A stretch of DNA of 64,000 nucleotides from Candidatus Bathyarchaeota archaeon (lineage in GTDB: Archaea; Thermoproteota; Bathyarchaeia; JAPDIZ01): positions 372,001-436,000 of the forward strand of contig JAPDIZ010000002.1 of assembly GCA_029259355.1 (NCBI GenBank), written 5' to 3'. This document shows positions 1-13,386 of this stretch, piece by piece. The number at the start of each line of letters is the position of its first letter. The first letter of the stretch is position 1. The translations under genes and the position numbers were made by a program. The notes beneath the pieces are model-generated. The model was not told the origin of the DNA and did not search any database. It worked only from the letters and a program-made list of their open reading frames with translations.

Positions 1-2362
1 ATAGATGTGTGGGCGCAATTTCAGTTAATGGCTTAATTGAATAGAATTTAACCCCCTCTCGAGACATACTTTTGCCACAATACCTCTTGATAAAAGCCTC
101 GTGATCAACCCCAAATCCGTAGCCTAAGAACCTCAAGTTGTCATACTCAGGCTCCCCGTAGACTACCCTAGCCAATAGGTACATGCCACTCCATGGATCT
201 AGACCAGCAGACACCATACGATCCAAGACAATGTGTGAAACAACGTCAGATGCGTACCTAAGAACATCTTCTATATCAACAGGCTTTCCCTCGATGGTAA
301 ATAGAGGCCACCACTTTCCTACTACGCCAAAGGCCGTTCCCATACCCATTAGAAGAGCATCAGCGTAGTTTAAACCATAACTAAGTACAGTATCTACGCT
401 TTCTTCAATAGCTTTCTTAACCTCAGCCATAAGTGCAGCATCCCAAACTCCTTTAGAAGCTTCTTCCCTAGGCTCTAGCGCAATCACTAAGAGAGTCTTT
501 ACAGCAGCCTTTCCAACAATGTGTATGGACCTAGGTTGTTCAGAGGCAAACCCCCAAACCGCGATTGGCTTAAAACCAGCCTCCAGAGCAGCATTCAGCA
601 TCACTCTTAAGCCACGGGTACTCCTATGAGCATACATAAACACCGCAAGACCATTTGGCTTCAAACAGCTTCGAACAAGCTCCAAAACCTCCTTAAGCTT
701 CTGCTCAAACCACTTTTCGTTTCGACCACGCGTTCTATTAACAACAATTTCTTCCTCTTTAGGCGTAAGCTCCGTCGAAAAAGCCTCAGGATATAGCTTA
801 CCAACGCTTCGTTTAAACCAAACGTAGAAGAAATCGCTCAATTCGCAGTACTGCACATTAGCATAGTACGGGGGATCCGTTATTACGTAGTCGAACTCAC
901 CGAGTTCTACATAAAGGCTGGGATCTGCTGCATCACCTAATACTACGCGAATACTTCCTTTAACATCCCTTAGTAACTCCACAATGCGTTCAAGAGCTTT
1001 AACGATTCCAGTATTACTAAAAAGCACCCAATCCAGCAATCCCGTTCCTTTGGTTAAAAGATCACCTTCTCCAAAATCTTGGCCAAATTCAAAAGCATGC
1101 CTACTGAAGGTATGATTTATCGAGCCCTTACCATAAGGATCCCAAGTAGTTATCGCTGAGTTGTAGTCCAGCAGCCTTCCATGTGCAAGAGCAAGGTATG
1201 TAACCACCGCTTTAGCATATTCATCATCATAACCTTCCCCAATCATTTTATCATATGCTTCTCGGATCAACGAAATTAAGGTTATATGTACCAGAAGCTG
1301 CCTTGCATTAAAGAGTTTGTAGAAGGAACCCATTTCACGTGATAGAATTTCTCTAGTTTTATCACCATGAGGTATTTTTTCTGTAGGCACTAAATCCTCC
1401 ATGAGTAGTAGATGCCATCGTTCTCGTAAATCTTTTTCAGCAGTTTCTATTGCTTTGAACATCTCTTCCGTTGGCTCTACAAACTTCCCTCCTTCCAGTT
1501 TGACAGCTGCTAGAATAGCTGGATGATAGCCATAGAGCTGTTGTTCTTCCCACAGAGCCATTGCTTTAGCATATTGTGCGTGCATAGCTTCAGAGCCTAT
1601 TACGTGTCCTTTGGGACAGGTTAGCTTGGCCTTGCTGTAGTTGCTAAGGGTTTCTTTATCAGTGATGTTTGTTTTCACTACCCTAATCTTGGGTTTGTCT
1701 CCCTCATATTCTAGCTTCATCACATAACCCTGTTTTTTGGAAAGAAAGGGGTTGGCTAATGCGGGTACTAATAGGCCGCAGCGGCATCGATAGGTTTTAA
1801 CCCAGATGTAGTTAGTAGGTCTACCCTCTGGGTGGGGTGGGTAGTACTTGGCTAGCCTCTCTTTGGCTTCTTGAAGAAGCCATGTAGCCCATTTCTTTAC
1901 GTCTTTCACTAGTTTTTCGCCGTATCGAAGCGGGTATTCCAGCGTAGCCTTTAACATTACATAGGCTATTGGGTTATACTCGACTGCTACTACCTCTTTA
2001 AATCCCATGCGAAGAGCTTCAAAAGGTATGGAACCTCCTCCAGCGAAGACGTCTAAAAGCCTAGCGTTCTCGATGTCTGAATATTTTTTAATCCAGCTTA
2101 AATCTACACTATAGTTATATGCGGGCTTTGGTGAGGATAAAATCTTTATAGATTGTAAAAATCCTTGAATGAACTCCCTAGAAGGCTTTTCGTTGACCTT
2201 GATAACAGAAGATGCTATAGCACATCTACATCCAGCAAGAGGTCTTCGAGCCCACCATAGGTGGAGGTAGAAGGGCGGGGGGAAACGGGCTCCACGTTCT
2301 CGTTGCGATTCCTCAGAAGCCTCTAAGGTTGGGAAGTAGTACTTCATTAAGGGCTCTGGCAC
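1..2362 (-). CDS. DUF1156 zinc-ribbon adenine-type DNA methylase (3' end beyond window)
   Basis: Open minus-strand frame of about 787 codons that runs off the left edge, so the C-terminus is missing. It begins GTG at 2362 (MPEPLMKYYFPTLEAS...) after a GTGAGGG ribosome site; an in-frame ATG lies at 2347. The N-terminal stretch with LHLWWARRPLAGCR and the SAM-binding motif I (LLDVFAGGGSIPFEALRMGF, near 2070-2000) are hallmarks of COG1743/DUF1156 methylases. A cysteine-rich RCRCG segment lies near 1780, and catalytic motif IV reads TDPPYYANVQYCELSDFFYV (near 890-830). The family methylates DNA, probably N6-adenine, and is recurrent in archaeal and bacterial defence islands. It is divergent from the nuclease-helicase pair with 83 bp between starts. 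The family call is firm; the target base and role are inferred. Confidence 0.88.
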   Translation of the reverse strand, partial: MPEPLMKYYFPTLEASEESQRERGARFPPPFYLHLWWARRPLAGCRCAIASSVIKVNEKPSREFIQGFLQSIKILSSPKPAYNYSVDLSWIKKYSDIENARLLDVFAGGGSIPFEALRMGFKEVVAVEYNPIAYVMLKATLEYPLRYGEKLVKDVKKWATWLLQEAKERLAKYYPPHPEGRPTNYIWVKTYRCRCGLLVPALANPFLSKKQGYVMKLEYEGDKPKIRVVKTNITDKETLSNYSKAKLTCPKGHVIGSEAMHAQYAKAMALWEEQQLYGYHPAILAAVKLEGGKFVEPTEEMFKAIETAEKDLRERWHLLLMEDLVPTEKIPHGDKTREILSREMGSFYKLFNARQLLVHITLISLIREAYDKMIGEGYDDEYAKAVVTYLALAHGRLLDYNSAITTWDPYGKGSINHTFSRHAFEFGQDFGEGDLLTKGTGLLDWVLFSNTGIVKALERIVELLRDVKGSIRVVLGDAADPSLYVELGEFDYVITDPPYYANVQYCELSDFFYVWFKRSVGKLYPEAFSTELTPKEEEIVVNRTRGRNEKWFEQKLKEVLELVRSCLKPNGLAVFMYAHRSTRGLRVMLNAALEAGFKPIAVWGFASEQPRSIHIVGKAAVKTLLVIALEPREEASKGVWDAALMAEVKKAIEESVDTVLSYGLNYADALLMGMGTAFGVVGKWWPLFTIEGKPVDIEDVLRYASDVVSHIVLDRMVSAGLDPWSGMYLLARVVYGEPEYDNLRFLGYGFGVDHEAFIKRYCGKSMSREGVKFYSIKPLTEIAPTHL

Positions 2363-2445
2363 TTGTAAACCCTCACTTAAACATAAGAGCTTTATTTTTA
2401 TGTGATTTATGCCAAATTTTTAAGACTAGTGGCGCGGTGTAGCTG
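2363..2445. promoter_or_regulatory. Divergent promoter between the DUF1156 methylase and the nuclease gene
   Basis: This AT-rich 83-bp gap separates two divergent starts. On the plus strand AAATTTTTAAGA (about 2413-2424) is a good archaeal TATA box 22-30 bp before the ATG at 2446, predicting a leaderless or very short-leader nuclease-helicase mRNA. On the minus strand TAAAAATAAAG near 2400 could serve the methylase. Shared control of methylase and nuclease would be expected for a modification-dependent system, but no operator repeat is evident. Confidence 0.5.
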
Positions 2446-4191
2446 ATGTTCATCGAGAGTTACATCGCAGAGATTACAGGGCAAAGGGCGTGTGGCGATA
2501 TAGCTAGCGAGGCGCTTAAAAGAACTGCGCACTTAGTTAAGGCTAGGAGCGTTGCTTATGGCGCTGCTTTTTGTATATTTGCTGCTCGTCTCGCGGAGGC
2601 TATGGGAGTTAGGGGCTTTTTCCAAAGCATTTTGCCTGGAAAGGGCAATCTTGTTCACCAGCTGCTGGCTATAGCGTTTCCGCAGATGTTCGTAGAGCAT
2701 AGGGGCGAGATCGCTTCTGGTGATTTTGGCGCAATAAAATGTAAAGAGTATGTGGATTACGCAGAGAATTTGCTGAAACAGCTAGGTGTTCCTGCTTTAG
2801 AGATGGCGGAGACGCGAACAATTCATCAAGCTAAAGATGAAGCTACTACAATGCTTCGAGAAGCCATTTCATTTCTTCACCACATCTCCGGTTCTTTGGG
2901 GATAGATCTCTGGGAAAGGGAGACGCGAGTATTCTCTGAGTTTCAACTTATGAGTTACCGTGTTCACGTATGGGGGATTATGGACGCATTAATCGAAGAT
3001 CCTGTTCATAGAAGAGCCGTTATCATCGATTGGAAGAGTACCACTGAAGATAGCCGTGCACCACAGATAGGGGGTTGGGAAATAGCGCAAGCGTATGTGT
3101 ACGCCCTTCTCGAGGCTGACAGACTTAACTTTGATGACATTCTCCACCCCGTTTTGGAAGGAAATATTCTTCCAGTCATTATTAGGCCGAGAGGCGATAT
3201 TAGAGTATACAGCATTAGCCCTAGTTATAGAACCTCATCCAGCAAAGTAGATCTAGGCGATCTTTTGAGGAAAATCATGCTATCTGCCGAACATCTCACT
3301 TTGACGGTAACTGATGTGGGAAAGCTCGTCGGTAGTAATTATGAACGAATCTGTAGAGTTCTTTCGTCTAGGAGTGGACGTTTAATTAGTGCATTTCGTC
3401 GAGTACCGCCTGATCTCCCTCGAGGAAACCCAATATCTAGACAAGATTCGTGGCCCTGTGTGGCTTGCTCAATGAGAGAAGAATGCAGGTTTTACATATA
3501 TAGCAGTGAACAACCTGAAGAAATCGATAGAATTGCTTGGAGAACGAGGTTTTCGATTTATTCTATTCGCGAAAACGCGCTACAACCCTATAAAGAACTT
3601 CATGATAGCATAGGTGTAAGAGGCTTTACAGAAGATATTTTTCGAGAAGGTAGGTTAAGAGTTCTAGAAGGAGGTAACCGCATAGATGTTTTCGACGAGG
3701 CTGAGGCTCCCGGGGATTCAATAATTCTTAAGAGAGATATCAGACCAGAGGAAAGGGCTCAAGAGAGAATTCTTACCGTACGAGATGGAAAGCCTGTCGC
3801 GCTTTTCTTCAACGAGCCAAGCATACCTGACCCGCTGTTAAGATTAGCGTTGATCGGCCGTGTTGAGGAAACTGGTATTGATGAGGAAGATAGGCGTGCC
3901 TTTGTTAGGGTTGAAGCTCCTAATGCGCCCTCGAGAATCCACCACGTGCTGTTTAAGCTGTATTTTAGGCAGTGGGGGTCTTTATCCGCTAGGGCGATTG
4001 CAGTTGAGACAAACGTCGACTTAACCCAATTAGAGCTTAGGGCAGTTGATGCTTATCAGAGAGCCACGAAATACGCGAGGAAACGAGGGTACACAGACTT
4101 AGCTGAAGAGCTTAATAAAAAAGGTAGGGACTTCGAGCAAGAATCTCTTGCTCAGCTTTTTGGCTCAAGTTTTTGGTGGCGGGTACCATGA
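2446..4191 (+). CDS. Cas4/Dna2-type PD-(D/E)XK nuclease with iron-sulfur cysteines
   Basis: This 581-residue protein reads as the nuclease half of a Dna2-like enzyme. The RecB/Cas4 signature is visible: H71, D180 in GIMDALIE, D195 and K197 in IIDWKST, and Q215/Y219 in QAYVYALLEA. Four cysteines, C303 and then C338, C341 and C347 (CxxC-x5-C), fit the iron-sulfur staple of Cas4, AddB and Dna2 nucleases. The last 200 residues are beta-rich and resemble the barrel/stalk region that precedes the helicase core in Dna2/UPF1 proteins. Its stop overlaps the helicase start in an ATGA, so the two are translationally coupled. No cas1 or cas2 is nearby, which argues against a CRISPR-adaptation Cas4. Nuclease assignment is good; the in vivo substrate is unknown. 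Confidence 0.75.
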   Translation: MFIESYIAEITGQRACGDIASEALKRTAHLVKARSVAYGAAFCIFAARLAEAMGVRGFFQSILPGKGNLVHQLLAIAFPQMFVEHRGEIASGDFGAIKCKEYVDYAENLLKQLGVPALEMAETRTIHQAKDEATTMLREAISFLHHISGSLGIDLWERETRVFSEFQLMSYRVHVWGIMDALIEDPVHRRAVIIDWKSTTEDSRAPQIGGWEIAQAYVYALLEADRLNFDDILHPVLEGNILPVIIRPRGDIRVYSISPSYRTSSSKVDLGDLLRKIMLSAEHLTLTVTDVGKLVGSNYERICRVLSSRSGRLISAFRRVPPDLPRGNPISRQDSWPCVACSMREECRFYIYSSEQPEEIDRIAWRTRFSIYSIRENALQPYKELHDSIGVRGFTEDIFREGRLRVLEGGNRIDVFDEAEAPGDSIILKRDIRPEERAQERILTVRDGKPVALFFNEPSIPDPLLRLALIGRVEETGIDEEDRRAFVRVEAPNAPSRIHHVLFKLYFRQWGSLSARAIAVETNVDLTQLELRAVDAYQRATKYARKRGYTDLAEELNKKGRDFEQESLAQLFGSSFWWRVP

Positions 4192-5777
4192 CAACATACT
4201 TTATTGACGAGGGAATTAACCAAGCTCAGCTCGAAGCTCAACGTGAAGTAAAGTATGCGTTTGTGGGAAATCAGCCTCAAGCAGTTGAGCTAATGGAAAA
4301 AAGCATTGAAGGAAATGTCACACTTGCTGCGGTGCAAGGACCTCCAGGAACTGGTAAGACGAGCGTTGTTGAGGCATTTGCGGAGCGAAAACTTGTCGAT
4401 CTTTTAGCTAGTAACGAGCGTGTATTGGTTGTATATGTTGCTCCTACCAATCATCTCGTGTTTGAAGCGTTTCAGCGTATTTCTAGACAGCTCATTAGAG
4501 CTGGCTATGACCCAATATCTATACTTAGATCGCTTAGGGTTTACGGCTCAAAAATAAGGCCTTTTCGATCACGAAGTAATCCTAGGATTAATGTCGATGT
4601 AGATCTGATTCAGAAGACTATGGGAGCTATAGAAGTTGATGAGGTTAGATTTGTTTTTACAACCGAATTTCAAAGGATTTCTTACAGATTGAGCGATGTA
4701 AACTTAGACCGTATTCACATAGTTGTTGATGAAGCGAGCAAATCTCCGTATTTCAGAGTCTTTCTGCCGCTTGCAGACATGCTTGTTCGGCATCCAGAGC
4801 AATATCCAAGTTCTATGCTTGTCCTTGGAGATCCGCAACAAGCTATAACAGTTTCTGAAGAATTTAGAGAGTACAACATTCCGTTACTCATGGAATATGT
4901 AAAGAGAGTTCTAAGAAGAAATAATTTGTTTGGGGAACGTTGGGTAATGCTTGATACGTCGTTTAGGCTTCCAAGGCCTTCGGAGGAGCCTATAAGTGAG
5001 GGATACTACGATGGTATGCTTAATGCTTATTATTCAGCTAGTGAAAGATTATCAAAGATAAGGGATTCAATAATCGACAATCGCAACAAAATCTTAAGAA
5101 TTTTGGATTCTTGCGGCATCAATGTAACCTCTGAAGAAACTAGGAAGATCATTGACAGCATCGAAACTGCTGCATCAGATCTGAAAAATGCGCCACTAGT
5201 TTTGGCGGAAACGAACCACTTCCTAGGTGGTGACACCTTCGATGACAAGAGAGTTAAACCTGCTTTGGTGGCTTCAGCCTATCTACAAGCCGCGTCAAAA
5301 CTTGGAGGTAACGCGTTTAGCGTGGCTGTAACCGCGCCCTATAGTGATTTGGTCAATGCTATATCGTTTAGATTTGATCATAAACGATTGAGTCCGCGAA
5401 TAGGCAAGCCTCGTTCGGTAACAGTACAATCAGTTATAGGCGGGGAAGCGGATGTCATAGTGACTATGCTTGGTAAAGAGTGGAGTTTCATGGATTCTCG
5501 TTTTATCCCTCCAAGCGCTTTAAGTAGCGAATACAGGGAGACCATCTATCCTAGGGAACCAGAGTTACTTAATGTTCAACTGAGTAGGCATAGGACGTTA
5601 ATGATCGTTATAGGAAACTTAGGACGTCTAAGGCGTTTACAAGCAGATCACCATTATCAATTTAGGGGTGTTGAGAGAATTAGGAAAACTATACACAAGA
5701 TGAGCGAATTGGTTGAGAAGGGATCTGCGGTATATTCAAAGCTTCATAACATCCATAGCGCTTATTCGTTGATCTAA
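4188..5777 (+). CDS. SF1 (Dna2/UPF1-like) helicase
   Basis: The ATG at 4188 overlaps the nuclease stop as ATGA; upstream TTG/GTG codons in frame are less likely starts. All core SF1 motifs can be read: Walker A QGPPGTGKTS near residue 52, Walker B IVVDEASKSP, motif III LGDPQQAI, a motif V-like TVQSVIGGEADVIV and a motif VI-like NVQLSRHRT. At about 530 residues it is a bare helicase core; the nuclease and barrel parts of a Dna2 protein are in the preceding gene. Together they should unwind and cut DNA ends or flaps. It converges with the methylase at 5787-6893, with only 9 bp between stops. Confidence 0.8.
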   Translation: MTTYFIDEGINQAQLEAQREVKYAFVGNQPQAVELMEKSIEGNVTLAAVQGPPGTGKTSVVEAFAERKLVDLLASNERVLVVYVAPTNHLVFEAFQRISRQLIRAGYDPISILRSLRVYGSKIRPFRSRSNPRINVDVDLIQKTMGAIEVDEVRFVFTTEFQRISYRLSDVNLDRIHIVVDEASKSPYFRVFLPLADMLVRHPEQYPSSMLVLGDPQQAITVSEEFREYNIPLLMEYVKRVLRRNNLFGERWVMLDTSFRLPRPSEEPISEGYYDGMLNAYYSASERLSKIRDSIIDNRNKILRILDSCGINVTSEETRKIIDSIETAASDLKNAPLVLAETNHFLGGDTFDDKRVKPALVASAYLQAASKLGGNAFSVAVTAPYSDLVNAISFRFDHKRLSPRIGKPRSVTVQSVIGGEADVIVTMLGKEWSFMDSRFIPPSALSSEYRETIYPREPELLNVQLSRHRTLMIVIGNLGRLRRLQADHHYQFRGVERIRKTIHKMSELVEKGSAVYSKLHNIHSAYSLI

Positions 5778-5786
5778 AAAGTTTCA

Positions 5787-6893
5787 CTAATTCTTTTTAC
5801 ACAACTTAACTAGATATAGTGATCGATTTGGTTTACATCTAACACCTATTTTCTCTATCTTCGTTTTGAATTCATGCTTCTGCGCTAGCTTTGCCATGAT
5901 TTCTTGCGTCTGAATTTCTGCTCCCCCCAGTTGGCTATTTCCCACCGTGTACCATGCTTCCCATTCGAGTCGTTCAGCTAGTACCTGTAAATGCTTATCA
6001 ATTGCATAGAAATACTGCGCCAAAAACCGTCTATATCCCTTTTTCCTTTTTCCTCCAACATTACTCAGAGCAGATTCGAACCAAGGTTGGTTTAGCTGTG
6101 GCTTTTGTCTACGCGCAGCTGCTTCACATGAAGGTATCTGCATGGTTCTTAGTCTCCCAAGTTCTCTGGAGTTTTTTGCGTATCCCGCCCATAGCAATGC
6201 CAGCTGGCTGTGTCTAATGTAATCTACGTTATTGGCAAATGGTGGGCTTGTGAGCACAGCATCTATTTTTTGTGGTAACCAGGTCGTTGAATCAGCCAAC
6301 ACTAACTCCGCATTATTTGTTGGAAGCTTGGCTAAGTCTTGAATAGCCTGCTCCACTCTTATGAGGAACTCTGTAAGTATTTGCGTCTCATCTTCTATTA
6401 ATGGGTTGTTTTTACTGTATTTGGGAGCTGGTGAGTATTTTATCAAGCTGTACTTCTCCGCTATCGCCACTAGCGCAACTAACGCGGGTGGTTTCTCTAT
6501 CTGTTGAAGTTTCTCTATGCCCCCTCTTATTTTTGCGAGTTGCCTCAGCTGCCTCTCGGTATGATATTTCTTCAGTCTATCGCTTGGTAAGTAGGGCTCT
6601 GCATTTTCTATAGTTTCTCTGAGGTTTTTGATATCTATCGTTATGGGATTAATTTTTGCTCGAGTCGTCGTTATGGCCCATGGGTTCACATCTATTCCTA
6701 TGGCATTGAATTCTTTTTGGATAGCCTCTACAATTACCGTGCCCGATCCTACAAAAGGGTCTACCACGGTTCTGCATCCCACTTCTTTTGCTTCTTCAAA
6801 AAATTGTTCAGTAATCTCCGGCGTCATACCATGCTCTGTGAAGACATATATTCGATGTACTGGTTTGTTTTTCCAAGGGTTTGTTCTGAGCAT
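5787..6893 (-). CDS. DNA methyltransferase with TSPPF catalytic motif
   Basis: This 368-residue protein has motif I first (VDPFVGSGTVIVEAI, near residue 45) and motif IV later (LTSPPFANNVDYIRHSQ, near 215). A TSPP(F/Y) tetrad is typical of N4-cytosine (and some N6-adenine) DNA methylases, and related folds methylate tRNA guanines (Trm11/TrmG10), so RNA cannot be excluded. There is no THUMP domain, which favours DNA. It starts at ATG 6893 and faces the helicase gene. Its position inside the nuclease/methylase island suggests self-DNA protection. No cognate restriction endonuclease of ordinary type is visible next to it. Confidence 0.7.
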   Translation of the reverse strand: MLRTNPWKNKPVHRIYVFTEHGMTPEITEQFFEEAKEVGCRTVVDPFVGSGTVIVEAIQKEFNAIGIDVNPWAITTTRAKINPITIDIKNLRETIENAEPYLPSDRLKKYHTERQLRQLAKIRGGIEKLQQIEKPPALVALVAIAEKYSLIKYSPAPKYSKNNPLIEDETQILTEFLIRVEQAIQDLAKLPTNNAELVLADSTTWLPQKIDAVLTSPPFANNVDYIRHSQLALLWAGYAKNSRELGRLRTMQIPSCEAAARRQKPQLNQPWFESALSNVGGKRKKGYRRFLAQYFYAIDKHLQVLAERLEWEAWYTVGNSQLGGAEIQTQEIMAKLAQKHEFKTKIEKIGVRCKPNRSLYLVKLCKKN

Positions 6894-7072
6894 AGCTCTT
6901 TAAAATTAAAATAAGGCGCGCATAAAGCTTTCCTATCGGTAAAAGACGAACGTAACCAATCTCGCTGTTAAATAGTTATGGTAGATATATCTATAGGGGG
7001 TGTGATATATTAAGTTTTTAGCGCAGTTTAATATCTTTGATTAAACTTGTATTATTATGGAGGGATGTAATT

Positions 7073-8194
7073 ATGCGTATAAAATATCCAAATTCTGATA
7101 ATGCTCTCAGAAATTTATGGAACATGATTTCGTTTATCAAAGACAGATTTACTAGGTGCACTCATCAACTACATAATTCTATTACAACACTTTATATCTC
7201 AAGTCTTATCATATCGCCCAGATTATCTTTTAGGGGATATCAGCTATTGAACGAAATCCACAATATCATTAGTTTATCTCCAAAAGATTTTGTATGTATA
7301 ATCAGAACTACAGACCCTTCATATTTCTCGAAACTAAGCTCGCTGAAACTACTACAAAAACAGACAATAGATTTCCTTAGAGATAAATGTTATGTAATAG
7401 TTTTCGGTCCTCACCGGGAGTTTTTGAATCATGCAAAATTCCTTATATTCTATCATGTGTGTTTTTCTGAAAAAATTATATACCATGGCAAGTATTATGG
7501 CTCAACAAATTTGACCATAGCTGGACTTGCTTTTGGTAAAAGCTCAGGTAATTACGAGGAGTTTTGGAAGAGTGGACCAATATCAAAACTAGACTTTAGC
7601 AAGGGAGACGAATTTTATTTAGATGAAATGTTAGCTCTCATAAATCACAAGATATCACTTTACAGTGATGATGATTATCTGAAAAAATACTTATCAGATC
7701 ATCTTAATTACATGCACTTTACCTTAATGCGTGGTAAAAGAGTGCTTAGAGGTACAACTATAGGAGAGTTATATGAAACATATGTAGATTTGTTGATTAT
7801 GTACAATAAGACATTCGCGCTCCTAGGCGAAATTCCTGGTAAGAAACTCACAGAAGAACTTAAGGAAGAGTTGATTGAAGTGAAATCTCCAACTAATCCC
7901 CTTGAGCTAGAAATGATGGTGCCAGTGGATGCGGAAAATGCCGAATTGTTGGCGGAAGATATAGGATTGGGCCGTAACAATCTTCGCTCACAGATTAGAG
8001 ATTATATTGCCGCTATGGAACAGGCATTTAAGCTCATTAAGCGAGGATATTTAGACATAATTTCATTGAATGAGATAAAAAAACATGCTGACGAAAAGGA
8101 AGTCGAATTTATAGAATTTATTAAGACAAACGGAACGTATCACAAAAGAAACTTAAAGAAAATTTTAGAAATGATGAGAGGGCATAAAAGATAA
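7073..8194 (+). CDS. Phospholipase D-fold (HKD) nuclease-like protein
   Basis: I place the start at ATG 7073 because GGAGGGATG lies just upstream; a TATA-like GATATATTAAG sits near 7001-7012. The 373-residue product contains one HKD-type motif, HAKFLIFYHV followed by GKYYGSTNLTIAG and then NYEEFW, matching H-x-K...G-S-x-N of the PLD superfamily. One-motif members such as Nuc and BfiI dimerise to form the active site. The C-terminal 150 residues are charged and helical. PLD-fold nucleases accompany methylases and helicases in several defence systems (for example DrmC of DISARM). The fold call is fairly sure; the role is inferred from neighbours. Confidence 0.62.
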   Translation: MRIKYPNSDNALRNLWNMISFIKDRFTRCTHQLHNSITTLYISSLIISPRLSFRGYQLLNEIHNIISLSPKDFVCIIRTTDPSYFSKLSSLKLLQKQTIDFLRDKCYVIVFGPHREFLNHAKFLIFYHVCFSEKIIYHGKYYGSTNLTIAGLAFGKSSGNYEEFWKSGPISKLDFSKGDEFYLDEMLALINHKISLYSDDDYLKKYLSDHLNYMHFTLMRGKRVLRGTTIGELYETYVDLLIMYNKTFALLGEIPGKKLTEELKEELIEVKSPTNPLELEMMVPVDAENAELLAEDIGLGRNNLRSQIRDYIAAMEQAFKLIKRGYLDIISLNEIKKHADEKEVEFIEFIKTNGTYHKRNLKKILEMMRGHKR

Positions 8195-10210: not shown

Positions 10211-11172
10211 ATGGTGATTAGGGTCTTAAGGGTTAGGAATTTCAAGTCGGTTAGGGATTTAGTGTTGAGTTGTAGGAGGATTAATGTGTTTATTGGTGAG
10301 CCTGATGCTGGTAAATCCAATATTTTAGAGGTTATTGGTTTGTTGTCTCATGTGAGGTTTGGTCTTGGCAAAATAAAGGACTTTGTAAGAATGGATTATA
10401 TGTCTGATATATTTTACAACAAACAGACTGGTAGTGAGATAAGTATAGAAGTTGATAACAAAGTTCTAAAGGTTCGTCGGGAAGGAGATCTCTTCAGAGG
10501 TGAATTCGTAGGCGAAAAAAGAGGAAAAGATCCGCGATTTCGATTTCAACTGATGCTAAGGAGTTTTTTGAGTTGTTTAAGTTCTATAGGTTTGGGGTGA
10601 GGGAGGAGTTTCCTGGTGGTTTTGAGCCGTTTTTGTTGCCTCCTGATGGTGGTAATTTGACGACGCTCATAATTAGTTCTGAGAGGCTGCAGGAGGTTTT
10701 TGGCGATGTTCTTAGTGAGTTTGGGTATGAATTGGTTGTTAGGGAGTTTGAGAAGAAGATTGAGGTTCAGAAGAGGATTAGGGAGGGTATTTTGGTTTCT
10801 CTTCCTCTTTTCATGGTTTCGGAGAGTGTTTATCGGCTTCTTTTTCATTTGGCGGCTATTTTGACGAATAGAAATTCTGTGATTGCTTTTGAGGAGCCTG
10901 AGATACACACCCACCCATACTACACCAAGTATCTTGCGGAGAGGATTGCGAACGATCGCAACAACCAGTACTTTATTTCAACACATACGCTCTACATGCT
11001 TGTTCCGCTTATAGAGAAGACGAGTATTCACGACTTAGCGGTTAACATAACCTATGTCGATGAGGGTCGGACGAAGGTTTATACGCTTTCGGATGAGGAT
11101 TTGGAGAAGTTGTTGGATTTGGAGTTTGATGCTTTGCTGAATTTGGATAGGTTTCTCAAGGGGTTGAGATGA
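10211..11172 (+). pseudogene. OLD/AAA15-type ATPase, interrupted by one frameshift
   Basis: Two overlapping frames form one protein of about 320 residues. Frame 1 (10211 on) gives an SMC/RecF-like N-terminus, MVIRVLRVRNFKSVRDLVLS, with Walker A GEPDAGKSNILE. After a run of A and AG near 10515-10530 the correct sequence continues in another frame (SAISISTDAKEFFELFKFYR...) to 11172. It includes Walker B and D-loop VIAFEEPEIHTHP and the switch histidine in FISTHT. Only one indel is needed, so it may be an assembly error and the protein may be intact. The partner gene overlaps its stop by ATGA. The pair resembles ATPase-TOPRIM modules such as PARIS (AriA/AriB) and split OLD nucleases. Confidence 0.72.
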
Positions 11173-11591: not shown

Positions 11592-12254
11592 TCATTTTAG
11601 GGCTGTTTGTTCTTGTATGAGTTTCAGTAAAGAAACTATTGGCTGAAATGCGCTTCTTATATTCTCTTCACAGGCTTTGTTTATCAGTGGAGCGATTTTT
11701 TGGTAGTTGTCGATTAATTGTTTTGAGGATTTTATGCCCTGTATACTCGTTAGATTGATGCTACCTTTTAGGGCCATTAGCTTGATCACGTGATCCTCTA
11801 TCGAATGTTTCTCTACGGGGATTTCCTCTAACCCCATGAGAGTGACTACGATATTGAAGGATTGTTCACCACGAGCAACGTTTGATGCAAATACTTTTTG
11901 GTTAAGGAGTTTTGGGTCTGTGATCTCTATGCTATGTGATCGAAGAGAGTTGATTAACGACTCTATTCTTTCACTTGCTTCTTTATCGTCTAGGTCAATC
12001 ACTATTGCTAGGGTAGATAAGCTTCTTGAGAGCTTTGCTAAGGAGCTGACAACTATGGGGATGTTGTCGATGCCTTCGCAATCTGTTATCGCAACATGGT
12101 TTCCAAGCTTGTATCCAAGCTTTTTTGCAACTTCCTTGATGATTTCGGTATCTGTTTGTCCTTCACAAACGACTATGGCTTTTAGCCTAGGAGCTTTTCG
12201 AGAGATTGCATAAAAGGACTCTCTGTGAGGCTTTAGCTGAATCATGTAGTGCAC
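11592..12254 (-). CDS. TOPRIM (DUF3226/OLD-like) nuclease partner
   Basis: This 220-residue protein starts at GTG 12254, two bases after the ATPase stop; an ATG at 12245 is an alternative. TOPRIM signatures are clear: AIVVCEGQTDTEIIKEVAKK gives the glutamate and LAIVIDLDDKEAS gives the DxD metal site. TOPRIM domains of this group cut nucleic acid or act as ATPase-gated effectors in OLD, Gabija and PARIS systems. It forms an operon with the ATPase at 12256-13386 and converges on the other ATPase-TOPRIM module. Fold is sure; system membership is inferred. Confidence 0.72.
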   Translation of the reverse strand: MHYMIQLKPHRESFYAISRKAPRLKAIVVCEGQTDTEIIKEVAKKLGYKLGNHVAITDCEGIDNIPIVVSSLAKLSRSLSTLAIVIDLDDKEASERIESLINSLRSHSIEITDPKLLNQKVFASNVARGEQSFNIVVTLMGLEEIPVEKHSIEDHVIKLMALKGSINLTSIQGIKSSKQLIDNYQKIAPLINKACEENIRSAFQPIVSLLKLIQEQTALK

Positions 12255-12255
12255 C

Positions 12256-13386
12256 TTAGATTATGTGGAGAAACCTTGGGTCAAGGCCAAGCTTCTGCAG
12301 AACGTCTAGGTCTACGGCTTCTAATGCTCTCGTATCAACTACTCCCTCCTCATCTCTTTCTATGAAAAAGGTTCTGAGGCCTAGCCCTAGCTCGGTTGTG
12401 ATTTTCTCTGCGATTTGGACGAGTTCGATGCTATGTGTTGTCATGAAGAGTTGAAGCGAGTTCTTCTTAGCAAGCTCAAAGACAAACCTAAGCAATTTGT
12501 CGAGCCCGCCTGGGTGTTGGTGGCTTTCCAAATCCTCGACTAGTACAAACGCGTTTTGGGTTACCGCAAGAATGGCTCCAAGTAACACGGCGACACGTGC
12601 TCCGTCGCCTAGATCATCTACTCTCACCGTGGTTTTGGATAGCTGAATGGCTAGGCAGAATTCCTTGCCTAAAGGCATATAGGTTAAGCCTTCAGCATCA
12701 GATTCGTAACCCGTTTTAATTAACTCAATGACCTCTTTATCTAGTCTTTTCGCTAATAGCTTTGGCCATACTGCTGTCTCAACCAATTTTGGGTTACGCA
12801 AAATCCTATCATCAACAAGCACAGTGTTTCTTAAAAAGTTCAGCTCATTTTCAAAAACTTTTGCGATTGTCTCAGCGATAGCATATGGTAATGGTTTGAT
12901 AATATTCATCGCCTTATCGTAGGAGTGTTTTTCTGCGTAGTTGACAAGCTCGTGTTCTCTGATCGAAATGTTGCTGAGATTGCTTACCGCATCTTTAAGG
13001 ATAGAAAGGTCTAACCACGCCCTTCCTCCAGAGTCTTTATTGAAAACCTTAAACGATAATGTTCTTTTTCTTTTATTCCCATTGGTAAATGTAAGTTCTA
13101 TCTCGATTGGTTTACTTACATCCATTCGAAACCAGAAGAGATCTCTAAAAGCTAACCAATCACCGCGTCCACACCTCCTGTATGCGATAACGTCTGCTTT
13201 GTTGTGTTTTTCTAAGGAATCTTTCAGTGATGCAAAAGTAGATGCTAGGTATATTGCTTCAAGTAGAGTTGATTTCCCACTTCCGTTTTTGCCTAAAAAC
13301 AGGTTTACATCAGTGAATCGAGAAACCTTTGCCTCCTTTATCCCCCTAAAGTTTTTGACGGAAAGCGAATCTAAGGCTATAACCAT
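12256..13386 (-). CDS. OLD/AAA15-type ABC ATPase
   Basis: This intact 376-residue ATPase belongs to the RecF/OLD group: Walker A FLGKNGSGKSTLLEAIYLAS near residue 35, an ABC-signature-like DDLGDGARVAVLLGA near 260, Walker B VLVEDLESHQHPGG and switch histidine in MTTHSIE. The coiled-coil insertion is short, as in AriA-type and OLD ATPases rather than SMC or Rad50. It is transcribed leftwards with the TOPRIM gene following after 1-2 bp. The two-gene unit is the intact counterpart of the frameshifted module at 10211-11516. Confidence 0.8.
   Translation of the reverse strand: MVIALDSLSVKNFRGIKEAKVSRFTDVNLFLGKNGSGKSTLLEAIYLASTFASLKDSLEKHNKADVIAYRRCGRGDWLAFRDLFWFRMDVSKPIEIELTFTNGNKRKRTLSFKVFNKDSGGRAWLDLSILKDAVSNLSNISIREHELVNYAEKHSYDKAMNIIKPLPYAIAETIAKVFENELNFLRNTVLVDDRILRNPKLVETAVWPKLLAKRLDKEVIELIKTGYESDAEGLTYMPLGKEFCLAIQLSKTTVRVDDLGDGARVAVLLGAILAVTQNAFVLVEDLESHQHPGGLDKLLRFVFELAKKNSLQLFMTTHSIELVQIAEKITTELGLGLRTFFIERDEEGVVDTRALEAVDLDVLQKLGLDPRFLHII

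Follow-up and report, generated by a model that had tools for sequence, protein, structure and literature searches.

Introduction

DUF499-centred, BREX-related systems have been described as BR Type 1 (Rakesh & Krishnan 2026, PMC12839542), which is the same as Hma (Payne 2021, PMC8565338) and as the COG1743-DUF499-SWI2/SNF2 operon. DUF499 proteins are related to the BrxC/ORC-Cdc6 ATPases (PMC12839542, PMC7641849). The papers found on such systems name a SWI2/SNF2 helicase (PMC12839542, PMC7641849, PMC3710099), and Hma in PADLOC consists of a helicase, a methylase and an ATPase (PMC8565338). Here we analyzed a gene cluster at the left end of a 64,000-nucleotide stretch (the window; contig JAPDIZ010000002.1, positions 372001-436000) from a 1.74 Mb, 95% complete assembly of a Candidatus Bathyarchaeota archaeon. 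The cluster encodes a DUF499 ATPase, a DUF1156 methylase, a Dna2-like nuclease and helicase, and a second DNA methylase (MT2).

Like Hma, the locus has a DUF499 AAA+ ATPase beside a DUF1156 N6-methyltransferase, a restriction-modification (RM)-like logic and a PD-(D/E)XK nuclease. It differs in lacking the SWI2/SNF2 helicase (HmaA, or BrxHII-like), in place of which it has an SF1B Dna2-like helicase and a separate iron-sulfur nuclease, and in having an extra methylase with a TSPPF motif. Defined by its helicase, it falls outside Hma and the BR types; it very likely works like one of them. The computed gene content, motifs, folds, linkage, two associations and absence of SNF2 pointed to what is probably an RM-like antivirus system of heat-loving archaea, centred on DUF499 and related to Hma and BREX, with the SWI2/SNF2 helicase-nuclease replaced by a split Dna2-like pair.

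Results

Layout of the cluster

The core genes are arranged in the order DUF499 (+), DUF1156 (-), nuclease (+), helicase (+) and MT2 (-), with no housekeeping gene between them, and the cluster runs past the left edge of the window. The DUF499 gene, the fifth core gene (1005 amino acids, aa; + strand), lies at about -3303 to -286 in window coordinates (L003:4697-7714). The DUF1156 gene (- strand) covers 1..2362 and continues to -289, encoding 883 aa when entire; these two genes are convergent and overlap by 4 bases. The nuclease gene (2446..4191, +) is followed by the helicase gene (4188..5777, +), and the helicase ATG and the nuclease stop share a 4-base overlap. Nine bases then separate the helicase from MT2 (5787..6893, -).

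A preliminary description of the window, made from the sequence, had grouped the DUF1156 methylase, the nuclease, the helicase, MT2 and a PLD-type nuclease as a candidate defence system. All five open reading frames (ORFs) were present at the coordinates given there, lying together as described, and their families were confirmed except for the weak PLD ORF. The same description had supposed that a DUF499 partner might lie to the left of position 1, and extension of the contig revealed it. The cluster is of the defence type, as that description had proposed.

The HmaC-like ATPase matched Pfam DUF499 (1.7e-33) and PADLOC HmaC (1.5e-65), with Walker A GGGK and DE conserved. Its score was far under the NCBIfam equivalog cut-off, which marked it as divergent. 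This was the single DUF499 locus in the genome. The HmaB-like methylase matched Pfam DUF1156 (1.7e-10) and PADLOC HmaB (1.5e-53). Its DPPY motif was invariant, and it probably modifies N6-adenine.

A nuclease and a helicase resembling the two halves of Dna2

The nuclease matched Pfam PDDEXK_1 (PF12705; 2.5e-7). Alignment of 18 homologues showed that the RecB/Dna2 catalytic residues (E165, D180, [ED]195-x-K197 and Q215xxxY219) and the four iron-sulfur cysteines (C43 and C338-x2-C341-x5-C347) were retained. An AlphaFold model (pLDDT 84.8), with a C-terminal beta domain, was compared with PDB folds. The top match, aligned over most of its length, was Dna2 (5eax, E 8.9e-7), which was the sole match below 1e-3; AddB ranked second. 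A sequence-profile search against the PDB gave no match, as the sequence similarity to Dna2 was too low.

The helicase matched Pfam AAA_11 (1.7e-9), and in 18 homologues the SF1B motifs were all present and invariant or nearly so. Its AlphaFold model (pLDDT 87.1) matched Dna2 first (5eaw, E 1.5e-16), closely followed by UPF1, IGHMBP2 and Sen1. It did not match PADLOC HmaA at all.

Because the top PDB fold of each subunit was Dna2, the models support the designation of the pair as a split Dna2 at the fold level, and the two proteins presumably bind each other physically. Eukaryotic Dna2 likewise combines an iron-sulfur nuclease with an SF1B motor. The window pair differs from it in being made of two genes and two chains, and in its defence-type gene context. 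Dna2 works on flaps and forks.

Absence of the SNF2 helicase

No SNF2 domain was found at the locus, or above the Pfam cut-off in the rest of the window genome (assembly 95% complete). A canonical Hma with its helicase elsewhere in the genome was rejected on this ground.

Eight ordinary DUF499/DUF1156 loci were found in the class of genome G020 (L101, L107-L113). These carried an SF2 helicase of about 1000 aa and no nuclease-helicase pair. In all six that were scanned with Pfam, the helicase consisted of SNF2, Helicase_C and NOV_C, and the three run through PADLOC matched HmaA (2.4e-61, 1.1e-66 and 1.5e-93). Since ordinary DUF499 loci keep an SNF2 helicase and the pair loci consistently lack one, the pair looks to have taken its place by substitution.

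On the DUF1156 tree, and on a DUF499 tree built by a quick search and flagged for long branches, the nuclease-helicase label needed two separate origins, forced by well-supported branches. One was the clade of eight that includes the window, and the other was L020/L021, nested within SNF2-type loci. The nuclease tree and the helicase tree agreed with each other. A single, moderately supported branch (92/93 and 89/93) separated the DUF1156-linked from the DndC-linked members of the pair.

Linkage of the pair to DUF499 and DUF1156

A phylum sample, the entire class of G020, the window's own class and a scan of named genomes were searched. Nuclease and helicase were both present in 19 genomes of these combined samples, and the pair adjoined a DNA-marking enzyme at 19/19 loci. 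In 10 of the 19 (the window, L020, L021, L022, L023, L032, L033, L034, L036 and L055), the pair shared one block with DUF499 and DUF1156, a linkage of four genes far beyond chance. MT2 was present in 8 of these 10 blocks, window included, and was broken across two ORFs in L021. All five genes were thus found in the window and seven other Thermoproteota genomes, and two more loci held four of the five. The gene orders varied, and the gene set was constant. Named carriers include Aeropyrum, Acidilobaceae and Pyrodictiaceae metagenome-assembled genomes.

The distribution was very patchy. In the phylum sample, 11/300 genomes were positive, one of them weakly. Among the 229 genomes of the class of G020, 52 had DUF499 and 13 had a confident nuclease match, of which 9 shared a block with DUF499/DUF1156. 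One carrier besides the window was found among 257 in the window's own class.

At both L020/L021-type loci, an AAA_5 protein (weak McrB match) and a partner of about 433 aa were seen right behind DUF499 (L094:7868-10799 and L095:8260-11269). These may form an McrBC-like accessory.

Association of the pair with a DndC-like enzyme

In the remaining 9 of the 19 genomes (L024-L029, L056, L057 and L096), the pair adjoined a DndC-like PAPS reductase of about 400 aa, and no DUF1156 methylase was present in the block. The protein of L024 matched PADLOC DndC (6e-36), TIGR03183 (2e-31) and Pfam PAPS_reduct (6.5e-19). The SGGKDST and GCW-C motifs were invariant in 9/9 of these proteins. Carriers include Vulcanisaeta, Pyrobaculum sp. 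WP30 and Ca. Wolframiiraptor. The preliminary description had set a refuting condition, that homologues of the pair be found mostly without methylases. By this condition, 9 of the 19 genomes lacked a DUF1156 methylase in the block; with a DndC-like enzyme at all nine, the idea was changed rather than refuted.

The enzyme family would imply phosphorothioate marking at these loci, which are candidates for a sulfur-marking defence. At L056, the trio of DndC-like protein, nuclease and helicase was surrounded by housekeeping genes. This suggested that the three genes may suffice. The window locus had no DndC, and the PAPS-reductase matches of its genome were located elsewhere. Taken over both kinds of loci, the pair seems to be an effector that moves between systems, serving some that mark DNA by methylation and others that probably mark it by phosphorothioation.

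Other genes were observed near the DndC-type pairs. L024, L025 and L096 also carried a Methyltransf_11-type protein with a partner of about 170 aa. In L024/L025, a P-loop protein was also present beside a protein of about 390 aa that matched no family. About 5 kb from the trio in a Sulfolobaceae-like genome, an ORF (L057:16222-17598) resembled a short PIWI/Argonaute by eye.

The second methylase and the PLD ORF

MT2 matched the Pfam D12/N6_N4 methylases (4.5e-7); a sequence-profile search of it against the PDB gave no match. Its motifs, DPFVGSGT (DPF-x-G-x-G) and TSPPFANN, were retained in seven homologues, with TSPPF invariant. The SPPF motif suggests an amino-methylase, and N4-cytosine would be a guess at its base. 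In the class of G020, 7/7 full-length or near-full-length close homologues of MT2 sat in DUF499/DUF1156/nuclease/helicase blocks. Three more copies there were partial and solitary.

Such copies of the TSPPF methylase, lacking the other genes of the system, were seen at L143:9763-10092, L145:504-968 and L146:2984-3334, and the copy in G226 has a stop codon. They are likely remnants of lost systems.

The PLD ORF (7037..8194, GC 0.34) contains a single H-x-K...GSTN motif read by eye, and may encode a single-motif PLD-type nuclease. It matched nothing in Pfam, PADLOC or NCBIfam. Homologues were found in genomes G184, G236 and G143, none of them near DUF499 or the nuclease-helicase pair. With its homologues unlinked and missing from all nine related loci, the PLD gene was rejected as a component, and its inclusion in the preliminary description was dropped.

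Comparison with other named systems

BR Type 2 has an HKD nuclease fused to a helicase together with DUF3780. No HKD fusion was found here, and DUF3780 was absent from the scanned neighbours, to which the search for it was confined. BR Type 3 and BREX were rejected, as there was no PglZ anywhere in the genome. The cluster shares with DISARM a methylase, a helicase and a nominal PLD within one stretch. However, the window helicase is SF1 and not SNF2, and the PLD gene is unlinked. DISARM was rejected because neither the cluster proteins nor eight neighbours matched DrmA, DrmB or DrmC in PADLOC, and the resemblance drawn earlier did not hold.

Mokosh consists of the kinase-helicase MkoA and the PLD protein MkoB, or of the fusion MkoC. 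PADLOC MkoA aligned with the motor of the window helicase only (2.3e-18, C-terminal part), no kinase domain was found in the helicase by Pfam, and the PLD ORF was unmatched. Mokosh was rejected accordingly.

Relatives of the pair adjoin a DndC-like PAPS reductase, as in Dnd/phosphorothioate systems. In the archaeal DndCDEA-PbeABCD system, Pbe modules pair with phosphorothioation genes or methylases (PMC6459918, PMC10853773). The Pbe effectors are, in contrast, an HKD-SF2 helicase and a CxC ABC ATPase, not Dna2-like proteins, and the window locus is without DndC.

UvrD-Cas4-like (pfam12705) helicase-nuclease fusions are known in RM loci (PMC5704561). These resemble the window pair, whose nuclease matches PF12705, in combining a RecB/Cas4-family nuclease and an SF1 helicase in DNA-methylase contexts. 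The fusions are of UvrD-type SF1A, form one protein and are associated with Type III RM or Dcm, whereas pairs of the window type are of UPF1/Dna2-type SF1B, are encoded by two genes and are tied to DUF499/DUF1156 or DndC.

In the open-licence literature, no published description of DUF499/DUF1156 combined with a Dna2-like nuclease-helicase was found, nor any paper joining Dna2, DndC, helicase and archaea; Dna2 is unmentioned in PMC12839542. This agreed with the earlier statement that the combination is not a named system. Nor is the system wholly without a name: its DUF499 and DUF1156 assign it to the Hma/BREX-related family, of which it is a variant with another helicase in place of SNF2.

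Genomic surroundings

The GC content of the first 16 kb was 0.39-0.45, compared with 0.51-0.56 across the remaining window, as in an acquired island. No relative was found in viral contigs or plasmids, and an origin from either was set aside, the viral scan being a single peptide pattern and weak evidence. Rfam detected no RNA families in the window.

Other defence-type genes were seen nearby. At 11592-13386, an OLD-like ABC ATPase (AbiLi 1.2e-33, PDC-M38A 3.6e-29) adjoins a TOPRIM/DUF3226 protein (PDC-M38B 7.6e-6); both lie within the low-GC island and make up another candidate defence pair. An AAA_15/OLD-type ATPase at 10211-11172 is spread over two frames that overlap (10211-10600 and 10573-11172), representing a broken gene or a frameshift. 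To the left of the system, about 6-9 kb from the window (L002:11224-14012), were an AAA_15 ATPase matching PD-T4-4_A (1.1e-35) and a UPF0175/PDC-M19A protein.

Discussion

The working proposed here for the DUF499 system is modelled on published ones (PMC12839542, PMC7641849). Its defence activity, methylated bases, recognition, order of events and division of labour are those that we infer. The DUF1156 methylase would mark host DNA, and the TSPPF methylase would mark it a second time, at a different site, on a different strand or on a different base. The ORC/Cdc6-like DUF499 ATPase would scan the DNA, assemble at unmarked sites and recruit or license the nuclease-helicase. The latter would act as a two-subunit Dna2. 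Its SF1B motor would start at ends, nicks or replication forks, tracking along the DNA and unwinding it, and its iron-sulfur nuclease would cut the exposed strand. Unmarked invader DNA would thus be degraded or be unable to replicate. As a portable effector, the pair would serve, through its relatives in other archaea, a DndC-like and probably phosphorothioate system.

Several points weigh against this proposal. Restriction by BREX and by Pbe, the precedents here, involves no visible cleavage of DNA. The pair also occurs with DndC-like enzymes without DUF499, so that dependence on DUF499 is not required. MT2 is absent from L055 and was unseen in L032, whose contig stops 1.3 kb past the helicase; for this reason MT2 may be accessory. 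The independent associations are few, two on the DUF499/DUF1156 side. A match to the Dna2 fold, seen in models, does not exclude a role in repair, and the part assigned to every member is a computational prediction.

The main mechanistic alternative is a BREX-like exclusion without degradation. Replication of unmarked DNA would be blocked at forks, and the Dna2-like pair would process stalled forks or flaps, the invader not being degraded outright. Dna2 is known to act at such structures. The relationship of DUF499 to the BrxC/ORC-Cdc6 ATPases (PMC12839542, PMC7641849) fits this explanation, as does the archaeal Pbe system, which halts viral replication with no cleavage detected (PMC6459918). 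However, the nuclease active site and the iron-sulfur cysteines were strictly conserved in all homologues, as for a working nuclease, and we consider exclusion of this kind unlikely.

The main organizational alternative, which we judge to be quite unlikely, is that two neighbouring systems have been taken for one. Nuclease, helicase and MT2 would then supply the cutting, motor and methylase functions of a self-contained RM module, and the DUF499/DUF1156 pair next to it would either act by itself or have lost its helicase. MT2 accompanies the nuclease-helicase pair even where DUF499/DUF1156 are of a different lineage (L020 and L021), and the pair is complete without DUF499 at DndC loci. On the other hand, no such trio without DUF499/DUF1156 was found in the genomes sampled, and L055 and L032, with no visible MT2, still keep the pair beside DUF499/DUF1156. 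The consistent lack of the SNF2 helicase also looks like substitution.

A further alternative is that the pair is simply a housekeeping Dna2 of archaea, which resects ends or processes Okazaki flaps and lies in a defence island by chance. This agrees with the Dna2 fold of both subunits but is highly improbable given the patchy distribution, the low-GC island and the DNA-marking enzyme at every locus.

Beyond the DUF499-centred system of the window, the pair could be a mark-agnostic effector of Thermoproteota that reads unmarked DNA through interchangeable partners. One partner would be DUF499/DUF1156 with the TSPPF methylase. The other would be a pared-down DndC-like sulfur system, consisting in the smallest case of DndC with the nuclease and the helicase, in which DUF499 is replaced or unnecessary. 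This wider proposal is tentative, and we hold it at somewhat less than even confidence.

For DUF499-centred immunity, these results suggest that the motor-nuclease is exchangeable for a Dna2-type machine and that the system adds a probable second DNA mark. Searches for Hma that demand HmaA would miss such loci, and archaeal defence is probably undercounted as a result. The loci also give a defence context to two-subunit relatives of Dna2, a central repair enzyme of eukaryotes. One effector pair joined to two DNA-marking chemistries constitutes a natural experiment, in which self/non-self discrimination becomes testable. If the mark-agnostic proposal is true, the pair would represent a new class of effector common to methylation- and phosphorothioate-based immunity.

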